This document shows, piece after piece, positions 5,965-8,927 of a stretch of DNA of 64,000 bases. The notes beneath the pieces were generated by a model. The model made no database searches. It saw only the letters and a list, made by a program, of their open reading frames with translations, and was not told the DNA's origin. The position numbers and the translations under genes are program-made. The stretch's first letter is position 1. Each line of letters begins with the position of its first letter. The stretch is from positions 20,218-84,217 of the forward strand of contig JAGGUP010000029.1 in NCBI GenBank assembly GCA_021158405.1, given 5' to 3'. This DNA comes from Bacteroidales bacterium. Lineage in GTDB: Bacteria > Bacteroidota > Bacteroidia > Bacteroidales > UBA12170.

Positions 5965-6246
5965 CTATCTATATAAACAACGATAAGAAGTATCACCCTC
6001 TACTTTTACTTTGAATTTTACGTCTTTCTCTACAATAAAAGTTTCGAATTCACCATACACTTTCCACTCTGTCTGACCGGGCAATTGCACACTCATTTTT
6101 CCACTTGTCACTGTCATATATTCAACAGTTGAAGTTCCAAATTCATATTCACCGGCTGCCATCACACCAATCGTAGCATCGCCACCTTTTGTTTTAAATG
6201 CAATAGACATAACCTGTCCATCAAAATATTCATTTGTTTTAAACAT
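5965..6246 (-). CDS. ppnP: pyrimidine/purine nucleoside phosphorylase (DUF1255, PpnP-like)
   Basis: 93 aa cupin MFKTNEYFDGQVMSIAF...GVMAAGEYEFGTSTVEYMTVTSGKMSVQLPG...W. Confidence 0.88.
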   Translation of the reverse strand: MFKTNEYFDGQVMSIAFKTKGGDATIGVMAAGEYEFGTSTVEYMTVTSGKMSVQLPGQTEWKVYGEFETFIVEKDVKFKVKVEGDTSYRCLYR

Positions 6247-6313: not shown

Positions 6314-6321
6314 TATATTTG
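6314..6321 (+). promoter_or_regulatory. -7 box TATATTTG (Bacteroidota TAnnTTTG) upstream of the lysC leader
   Basis: Consensus match; predicted TSS only a few nt before ATG 6331. Confidence 0.5.
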
Positions 6322-6330
6322 CAGCCGATA

Positions 6331-6399
6331 ATGAAAATAAATAAAAAATATAATAAACAGAAGAAAATCCTATCGGGTGGGCAGGCTTTGTTATATTAA
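6331..6399 (+). CDS. putative Lys-rich attenuator leader peptide MKINKKYNKQKKILSGGQALLY
   Basis: Short ORF between promoter and intrinsic terminator upstream of lysC; 6 Lys in the first 12 codons. Confidence 0.5.
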   Translation: MKINKKYNKQKKILSGGQALLY

Positions 6400-6416
6400 A
6401 ATATAAAGAATCAAAT

Positions 6417-6452
6417 AAAAAAGCCCAGTCGAATCCGATTGGGCTTTTTTTT
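6417..6452 (+). terminator. intrinsic terminator/attenuator upstream of lysC
   Basis: AAGCCCAGTCG-AATC-CGATTGGGCTT stem followed by T8. Confidence 0.85.
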
Positions 6453-6468
6453 ATTAAATGATAATTAA

Positions 6469-7788
6469 ATGATAATTAAAAAATTTGGGGGTACTTCTGT
6501 TGGTGATGCTAAGCGCATGAAAAATTTGATTGAGCTAATTCAATCAGAAGAAACAACTATCGTGGTTTTATCTGCAGTTAGTGGAACAACAAATAAGTTG
6601 GTTGCAATTGCAGAAAGTTTATACCGACAAGATAAACCCGATGCTTGTAATCAAATTAAGGCATTGAAAAGTGAGTATTTAATGTTAGCAGATGAACTTT
6701 TTGAAACTCCCAATAAAAACGAAGAAGGTAAAAAACTAATTGAAGCACATATTGGTTATTTAAAGGGATTTACAGAGCGCATTTTTACAATCCTTCAGGA
6801 AAAAGCCTTATTGGCTCAGGGCGAATTGCTTTCAACCGCACTCTTCCAGCTATTATTAGAAGAAAAAAATATTCCTTCTGCCCTATTGCCAGCTTTAGAA
6901 TTTATGAGAATCGATAAAAATCTCGATCCGGATGAATATTATATCCAACAAAACTTAAATCGCATATTAAAAAAACACAGCAACACTAAGCTATTTATCA
7001 CTCAGGGTTATATTTGCAGAAATGCTTATGGCGAAATTGATAACCTAAAACGTGGCGGCAGCGATTATACCGCTTCGCTTATTGGACAAGCCGTACAAGC
7101 TGACAAAATTCAAATATGGACCGATATTGATGGTTTGCATAATAACGATCCCCGATTTGTAAACAATACAAATCCAGTTGCAGAATTATCTTTTGAAGAA
7201 GCTGCCGAATTGGCTTATTTTGGCGCAAAAATATTACATCCTTCCAGTATTCTTCCAGCAAGACAAGCTCATATTCCTGTACGTTTAAAGAATAGTTTAC
7301 GCCCGAAAAGACCAGGTACCATCATACAAAATACAAAAGATAAAGCTGGAATAAAAGCCATAGCTGCCAAGGACAATATTACCATCGTACGTATAAAATC
7401 AGACCGGATGCTTTTTGCTTACGGTTTTCTAAGAAAGATTTTTGAGATTTTCGAAATCTACAAAACACCCATCGATATGATTACCACATCAGAAGTAGCC
7501 GTTTCGATGAGCATTGATGACACAAGCAATTTAGAAGCAATATTAACGGATTTAAAAAAATTCGGTCAAACCGAAATTGAACCTGATCAGGTAATTATTG
7601 CTTTAGTTGGTTATATCCCCACTTCCGGAAATGGATATGCCTCTCAAATATTCGATGCTCTTCTTGATATTCCAATTAAAATGATTTCGTATGGAGCCAG
7701 TAATCATAATATCACTTTATTAATAGATAAAAACGATAAGATAATGGCATTAAATACATTACATCAAAAACTTTACTCAAATCTATAA
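6469..7788 (+). CDS. lysC: aspartate kinase
   Basis: MIIKKFGGTSVGDAKRM...; GGSDYTASLIG; ACT-like C-terminus. Confidence 0.93.
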   Translation: MIIKKFGGTSVGDAKRMKNLIELIQSEETTIVVLSAVSGTTNKLVAIAESLYRQDKPDACNQIKALKSEYLMLADELFETPNKNEEGKKLIEAHIGYLKGFTERIFTILQEKALLAQGELLSTALFQLLLEEKNIPSALLPALEFMRIDKNLDPDEYYIQQNLNRILKKHSNTKLFITQGYICRNAYGEIDNLKRGGSDYTASLIGQAVQADKIQIWTDIDGLHNNDPRFVNNTNPVAELSFEEAAELAYFGAKILHPSSILPARQAHIPVRLKNSLRPKRPGTIIQNTKDKAGIKAIAAKDNITIVRIKSDRMLFAYGFLRKIFEIFEIYKTPIDMITTSEVAVSMSIDDTSNLEAILTDLKKFGQTEIEPDQVIIALVGYIPTSGNGYASQIFDALLDIPIKMISYGASNHNITLLIDKNDKIMALNTLHQKLYSNL

Positions 7789-7790
7789 GC

Positions 7791-8927
7791 ATGGCCATCG
7801 ATTATACAACTATAAAAACGCCTGCCTATCTCTACGATTTGGGACTTTTGCAACAAACGCTTAATTTTGTTAAAAAAGAAGCGGATGCCTTTGATTATCA
7901 TGTTCATTACGCTTTAAAAGCGAACAATAATCCAAAAATATTGGAGCTCATATCCGAGAAAGGATTTGGTGCCGATTGTGTTAGCGGGAATGAAGTTGAA
8001 GAAGCTTTAAAACGTGGTTTCAAAAAAGAAGAGATTGCTTTTGCCGGTGTAGGAAAAACCGACGATGAAATTAATTTTGCTCTAGAAAACGATATTTTTA
8101 GTTTCAACTGCGAATCACTCCCTGAAATAGAAGTGATCAACGAATTGGCTTTCAAAAAACAAAAAATTGCTCCCCTAGCCTTGCGTATAAATCCAAATGT
8201 AGATGCCAATACGCACAAATATATTACAACTGGTTTAGATGAAAATAAATTCGGTATTAGTTTGTGGGAACTCGAATCTATTCTAGACAGAATGAAAGCG
8301 ATGAAAAATGTCCAACTCAAAGGGTTGCATTTTCATATAGGCTCTCAAATTACCGATCTTGATACATTTAAAAATTTGTGTAACCGCATAAATCAAATTC
8401 AAGAGCAATTTTATGCGCGACAAATCATTGTGGAACATATCAATGTTGGTGGAGGATTGGGAATTAATTATCATCAACCCGACGAAGAGCCTATGTCTAA
8501 TTTTAAGAGCTATTTTAAGATTTTCAACGATTTTCTCGAGTTACGTCCAATGCAACAACTTCATTTTGAATTGGGACGATCTATTGTTGGACAAATGGGT
8601 AGTTTGCTAAGTAAAGTGATTTATGTAAAAAAAGCCAGCGCGAAAAGCTTCTTGATTATTGATGCTGCAATGACCGATCTAATTAGACCCTCATTGTATC
8701 AGGCTTTTCATAAAATTGAAAACCTGAGCTCAAATGGAGAAGATCAAGAGAAATATGATGTCGTTGGGCCGGTTTGTGAATCGTCGGATATTTTTGCAAA
8801 ATCAGTTACTTTGCCCTCTAGTAAAAGAGGTGATTATATATTAATCAGATCAGCAGGTGCTTACGGCCAAGTAATGGCATCGAATTACAATATGCGTGAT
8901 AATGCGCAGGTGGTTTTCATTGGTTAG
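7791..8927 (+). CDS. lysA: diaminopimelate decarboxylase
   Basis: PLP decarboxylase: HYALKANNNPKIL, HFHIGSQ, ELGRSIVG, GPVCESSDIF motifs; 2-nt gap to lysC. Confidence 0.9.
   Translation: MAIDYTTIKTPAYLYDLGLLQQTLNFVKKEADAFDYHVHYALKANNNPKILELISEKGFGADCVSGNEVEEALKRGFKKEEIAFAGVGKTDDEINFALENDIFSFNCESLPEIEVINELAFKKQKIAPLALRINPNVDANTHKYITTGLDENKFGISLWELESILDRMKAMKNVQLKGLHFHIGSQITDLDTFKNLCNRINQIQEQFYARQIIVEHINVGGGLGINYHQPDEEPMSNFKSYFKIFNDFLELRPMQQLHFELGRSIVGQMGSLLSKVIYVKKASAKSFLIIDAAMTDLIRPSLYQAFHKIENLSSNGEDQEKYDVVGPVCESSDIFAKSVTLPSSKRGDYILIRSAGAYGQVMASNYNMRDNAQVVFIG

Follow-up and report, generated by a model that had tools for sequence, protein, structure and literature searches.

To our knowledge, lysine is not normally counted among the amino acids that are sensed by leader-peptide attenuation, and lysC is known for its riboswitch. 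The classical systems, for which we took the enterobacterial attenuators trpL, hisL, thrL, leuL, ilvL and pheL as the comparison (RF00513, RF00514, RF00506, RF00512, RF01859), combine a short ORF in which codons for the regulated amino acid abound with alternative 1:2, 2:3 and 3:4 pairings and a terminator in front of a biosynthetic operon. For Flavobacterium psychrophilum, hints of leader-peptide attenuation upstream of amino-acid operons have been reported, as have structured elements in the 5' regions of hisG and pheA, and lysine is unmentioned in the main text of that study (PMC9723704). In S. meliloti, the leader ORF SEP5 contains Thr and Lys codons, and a role in controlling the Thr/Lys pathway was suggested for it in a report that also describes trpL of this bacterium as a leaderless attenuator ORF (PMC10117765). 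A lysine attenuator before lysC found no description in the open literature that we searched; two comparative-genomics studies, Vitreschak 2004 and Lopatovskaya 2010, might contain one. Here, we analyze a leader in front of lysC-lysA that, judged from its sequence and that of its relatives, is very probably a ribosome-mediated (classical) transcription attenuator sensing charged tRNA-Lys and controlling this operon.

The lysC leader and its conservation within the genus

The window, meaning the whole analyzed stretch of 64,000 nucleotides, is part of a 2.9 Mb draft genome from the order Bacteroidales (G000:C69:20218-84217). On the forward strand it carries lysC (6469-7788), encoding a lysine-sensitive AK3-like aspartate kinase, followed by lysA (7791-8927), encoding diaminopimelate decarboxylase. 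The lysC product matches NCBIfam TIGR00657 above cut-off, and its best full-length profile match, NF006570, is below cut-off (406 vs 455 bits), while lysA is assigned by TIGR01048 (399 bits, cut-off 298). The same order, lysC and then a lysA-like gene, was found in 12/12 loci whose downstream genes were inspected. Lysine, the amino acid made by this operon, is also the one in which the leader ORF is rich.

The earlier note had described a -7 box, a Lys-rich ORF, a GGCTTT/AAAGCC pairing and a hairpin with a T8 run upstream of lysC-lysA, and all of these are present. The predicted Bacteroidota-type -7 promoter element, TATATTTG (6314-6321, forward strand), is invariant within the genus and ends 9 nt before the ATG of the leader ORF, so that the transcript is predicted to be nearly leaderless. 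An exact TAnnTTTG ending 8-27 nt before the leader ATG was detected in 16 of 21 lysC leaders. The leader ORF itself (lysL; 6331-6399, forward strand), MKINKKYNKQKKILSGGQALLY, begins in A-rich DNA and comprises 22 codons with Lys at codons 2, 5, 6, 9, 11 and 12, i.e. six Lys within the first twelve codons; its stop codon lies at 6397-6399. It is followed by a strong intrinsic terminator on the same strand (6417-6452), composed of a hairpin of -20.0 kcal/mol taken alone and the T8 run, which was absent from the output of a simple consensus scan for terminators. Because the upstream neighbour (5965-6246, reverse strand) is divergent from lysC, this terminator is not that of an upstream gene and can be assigned only to the lysC transcript. 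The neighbour resembles the pyrimidine/purine nucleoside phosphorylase PpnP (NF007875, 93.7 bits, below the cut-off of 143).

Relatives were found by a lysC search, and five further members of the genus (genomes G003, G005, G006, G007 and G010; lysC 77-85% identical) showed the same layout of -7 box, leader ORF, strong terminator and lysC-lysA. Their leader ORFs (MKKMIKHSKHMKAIGNNRGLL, MIKMKKYNKQKKHVLM, MIKMKKYNKQKYAVLGCRTLLC, MKKTKKYNKQKKDKTICRALLF and MKKMKKYNKQKKDKTICRALLF) remain Lys-rich. Conservation of the ORF and its Lys codons, on which the earlier note had staked its interpretation, is thus found in the genus together with terminator and antiterminator, and analogues exist in other families. 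The short ORF between predicted promoter and terminator is kept as a reading frame across the genus, with pairwise differences of 8/26/34 at codon positions 1/2/3 in codons 2-12 and of 39/39/37 in codons 13-18.

Within the same genus, no such leader was found upstream of a more distant lysC copy (G009, 59% identical) or of other aspartokinase and thrA-type genes (L193-L196). A K-rich stretch before the G009 lysC (L011) was rejected as a leader, since it represents the C-terminus of a long ORF, and a second match of the leader within the same assembly (G000:C63, L003) was discarded as fortuitous, since it falls on an A-rich stretch before a different gene.

Alternative pairings and the proposed mechanism

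The minimum-energy fold of the leader reaches -30.6 kcal/mol (z = -4.16 vs dinucleotide shuffles). The terminator, formed by segments 3 and 4, is paired in 72/72 cells (100%) over the six sequences of the genus, three pairs show compensatory changes on both sides, and its covariation score was matched in 2/500 shuffles. Segment 3, AAAAAAGCCCAGTCG (6417-6431, forward strand), is both the 5' arm of the terminator and the 3' arm of the antiterminator, in which it pairs with 6379-6389 (GGGCAGGCTTT) of segment 2 (6379-6397, forward strand). The antiterminator pairs in the window are GGCTTT (6384-6389) with AAAGCC (6420-6425) plus TGGGC with GCCCA, and the duplex between the ORF end and the terminator 5' arm has an energy of -14.6 compared to -8.3 ± 2.0 in shuffles (p = 0.010; for G005, p = 0.004). 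Across 15 non-redundant lysC leaders, this pairing yielded a Fisher p of 4e-6.

Within the genus, the antiterminator pairing is kept though its sequence differs between species (G005, GATCAGGCTTT/AAAGCCTGATC; G006, CCGGaCTTTG/CAAAGcCCGG; G003, AACCGtgGTTT/AAACgcCCGGTT; G007 and G010, CCGGGC/GCCCGG). In the genus alignment, 81.8% of the cells of 6379-6389 with segment 3 are paired vs at most 57.6% when slid, and three pairs changed on both sides; the control by alignment shuffling is not decisive (63/500), as the alignment comprises just six sequences and several of them use slightly different registers.

In addition to the pairings of the earlier note, a candidate protector hairpin is formed by segment 1, AATATAATAAA (6347-6357, forward strand), which overlaps leader codons 6-9, and 6387-6397 of segment 2. 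This hairpin is part of the minimum-energy fold in the window and lies within that fold in 4/5 species, and it is 90.5% paired vs at most 53% when slid, with one-sided changes only. Its core, AUAACAA/UUGUUAU, is paired in 6/6 genus sequences and shows G-U changes only. Protector pairing would also account for the retention of TTGTTAT in G005, whose ORF stops before this sequence. The attenuation geometry is as described earlier, and adding the candidate protector hairpin extends it to the complete classical four-segment layout of 1:2, 2:3 and 3:4 pairings.

According to the proposed mechanism, transcription would begin within a few nucleotides upstream of the leader ATG and be coupled to translation of the leader ORF. 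With enough lysine, the ribosome would reach the stop codon and cover segment 2, leaving uncovered segment 3, whose first base lies 17 bases downstream; the 3:4 terminator would then form and transcription would stop before lysC. When lysine is short, the ribosome would stall at the Lys codons and disrupt segment 1. Three of the Lys codons (9, 11 and 12) are located within this segment or directly behind it, and given the footprint that ribosomes usually have, one held at these codons would break the 1:2 pairing and free segment 2. The latter could then form the antiterminator together with segment 3, and the polymerase would continue into lysC-lysA. If the leader is not translated, 1:2 would form, leading to the terminator by default.

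Lysine enrichment and alternative explanations

The caution of the earlier note that AAA codons may occur by chance holds for a single A-rich ORF, whose Lys codons are weak evidence alone; they become significant once relatives and the leaders of hisG are taken into account. Bacteroidota initiate translation without Shine-Dalgarno sequences and favour A-rich start regions, and the leader ORF does begin in A-rich DNA. The Lys codons of a translation-dependent attenuator could therefore merely reflect its initiation region, and the element would then respond to the overall rate of translation or to an amino acid other than lysine. We consider this explanation unlikely in view of the codon content of the leaders. 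Among 22 non-redundant terminator-bearing lysC loci, Lys accounts for 17.7% of the leader ORFs, compared to 11.1 ± 2.2% after dinucleotide shuffling (3/400). For all 33 lysC loci, 0/400 shuffles reached the observed Lys content. Lys codons are also found late in the ORF in three leaders (L132, L143, L019). In the same 22 leaders, Met amounts to 5.7% vs 2.4% in shuffles (2/400), an enrichment that underlies the reading of several amino acids discussed below and was computed across lysC leaders as a whole; Thr shows no enrichment over the whole set.

As a control, the identical pipeline was applied to 32 hisG loci of the same order (including L209, L211, L212 and L309-L336). Terminators were detected in 26/32, and the leader ORFs, which share the layout of the lysC leaders, contain 23.6% His vs 4.3% in shuffles (z 16.6), whereas Lys is at only 4.5% and not enriched. 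The difference in Lys between lysC and hisG leaders is highly significant (Fisher p = 1.4e-9). His leaders are also present in two genomes of the genus to which the window belongs (MNYTNLHHHHLHTCTQASWK, MYLSQLHHHHFHTGPQASRK). In two other families, leuA (L213, L214) is preceded by Leu/Ile-rich leader ORFs with terminators (MNKTIIILSIILLA, MNALTTNILLLGIIILLRKSVGSEFSV). The order thus appears to use classical attenuation with a signal that follows the amino acid, which answers the objection of an A-rich start. Based on these sequences, classical His attenuation appears to be widely used by Bacteroidales, and the results for hisG point to classical attenuation as a main mode of amino-acid control throughout this order.

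In other phyla, lysC is a classic target of the lysine riboswitch, and the combination of terminator and antiterminator is a riboswitch feature as well. That a ligand-binding RNA, be it the lysine riboswitch or some other, controls the terminator and the ORF is incidental is nevertheless very improbable: only about 85 nt, mostly coding and A-rich, precede the terminator, where a complex aptamer would not fit, and within the genus the peptide is conserved while the RNA outside the core is not. A search of the leader revealed no Rfam family at cut-off, including the lysine riboswitch, the T-box and the leader families. For the lysine riboswitch (RF00168), no covariance-model match was obtained at the gathering score or at E up to 5, nor was there one for the T-box (RF00230), and Thr_leader (RF00506) scored 28.8 bits, below its gathering score of 55.

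Least probable of all is that ORF and terminator constitute a stand-alone small RNA or small-protein gene, with lysC under its own promoter: such terminators are frequent at small-RNA ends and terminated attenuator products can act in trans, as reported for S. meliloti peTrpL (PMC7298713), but the 16 bases between T-run and lysC start leave no room for a separate promoter, a conserved alternative antiterminator would be superfluous for a plain small RNA, and the position before lysC is kept within the genus.

Leaders in other lineages and comparison with known systems

The distribution of candidate lysine attenuators was followed in the upstream regions of 80 named Bacteroidota lysC loci, about 100 loci of the order and 88 mostly from other orders of the class. 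In about eight groups of family rank, most of them within Bacteroidales, differing arrangements of a Lys-rich leader and a terminator lie upstream of lysC. These include Labilibaculum (MTHFFTYKKLYKRNKRS, MMAIALKYKKHYKRNKRF), one Vicingaceae genome (MMNNKSIKKSKKPSRICDGLRIL), f19 (MKGLKNIVKIKQVKRIKPVYKRM, MMKTKTYKMKVKKVNIQLP), f50 (MKMQLKKSNRRFKKFCL) and Bacteroidales UBA1797/fen (MKKQINRLMCYIKYLDFRS and relatives), as well as f25 and f80. One of the carriers, Labilibaculum manganireducens (L040), is a cultured species. The leaders of different families share no sequence, and the distance from stop codon to terminator is mostly 15-45 nt. In the Labilibaculum leaders, the test of duplex energy against shuffles revealed no antiterminator.

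Most of the inspected lysC genes of the phylum have no such leader (Bacteroides, Parabacteroides, Mucilaginibacter, Pontibacter and others), and among the 88 loci mostly from other orders of the class, terminator-like hairpins were found in 8 and a convincing Lys leader in none. The terminators before Pontibacter lysC (L067, L076, L091) were excluded, as they look like those of the upstream gene and the apparent small ORF is just the end of a longer reading frame. The earlier suggestion of a lineage-specific control is therefore borne out, but the lineage is wide and patchy, with several Bacteroidales families and one Vicingaceae genome, and does not comprise all Bacteroidota.

Further leader types were observed before lysC. 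Four terminator-bearing leaders contain few or no Lys codons (L073, L075, L101, L156); L073, L075 and L101 are Met-rich or Ile/Arg-rich, and in the first two, pairing to the terminator arm is nonetheless seen. In L023, L175, L180 and L181, the leader ORFs are longer, have a high content of Met and Lys and also contain Thr, and antiterminator and terminator arms change together in L175 (CTGCAGGC/GCCTGCAG) and L181 (CTGTAGGC/GCCTACAG). Seven loci (L059, L063, L066, L070, L249, L263, L287) share a conserved short peptide of the MKFNFQIKCKCKWLSCH type with Lys at alternate positions, which in L059, L063, L066 and L070 is followed by a GAGAGCTACGGTCTCTC-type hairpin without T-run. These MKFNFQIKCKCKWLSCH-type leaders are possibly another kind of Lys leader that does not terminate transcription.

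If the lysC leader is indeed a lysine attenuator, the pathway can be read via charged tRNA instead of free lysine, and unlike leader versions stand before the same gene in different lineages. It would also provide a ready reporter for attenuation in Bacteroidota, where translation starts without Shine-Dalgarno sequences and, in this case, almost without a 5' leader. More tentatively, lysC-lysA leader attenuators might have a lineage-dependent codon make-up, with Lys in the genus of the window and Lys, Met and Thr in f25 and f80 (L023, L180, L175, L181); if so, a single f25/f80-type leader would simultaneously sense several end products of aspartate metabolism in this pathway.

The mechanism seems to be that of known classical leader-peptide attenuation, and its lysine specificity seems to be undescribed. 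The Bacteroidales hisG (His-rich) and leuA (Leu/Ile-rich) leaders are laid out alike, with a promoter followed by a short ORF, a terminator and the gene, and their ORF end likewise pairs with the terminator arm, but they concern another amino acid and another operon. SEP5 differs in belonging to an alphaproteobacterium, in its six Thr and three Lys codons and in its position before an aspartate dehydrogenase gene, and the passage on it mentions no alternative folds (PMC10117765). The lysine riboswitch (RF00168) likewise controls lysC of other bacteria by a terminator, but does so with a large aptamer that binds free lysine. In comparison to the enterobacterial attenuators, the lysC leader carries codons for lysine, not for Trp, His, Thr, Leu, Ile, Val or Phe, has no sequence similarity to them (Rfam) and is nearly leaderless behind a Bacteroidota -7 box; what it has in common with them is the short ORF with many codons for the regulated amino acid, the alternative 2:3 and 3:4 pairings, to which the candidate 1:2 hairpin may be added, and the terminator before a biosynthetic operon.
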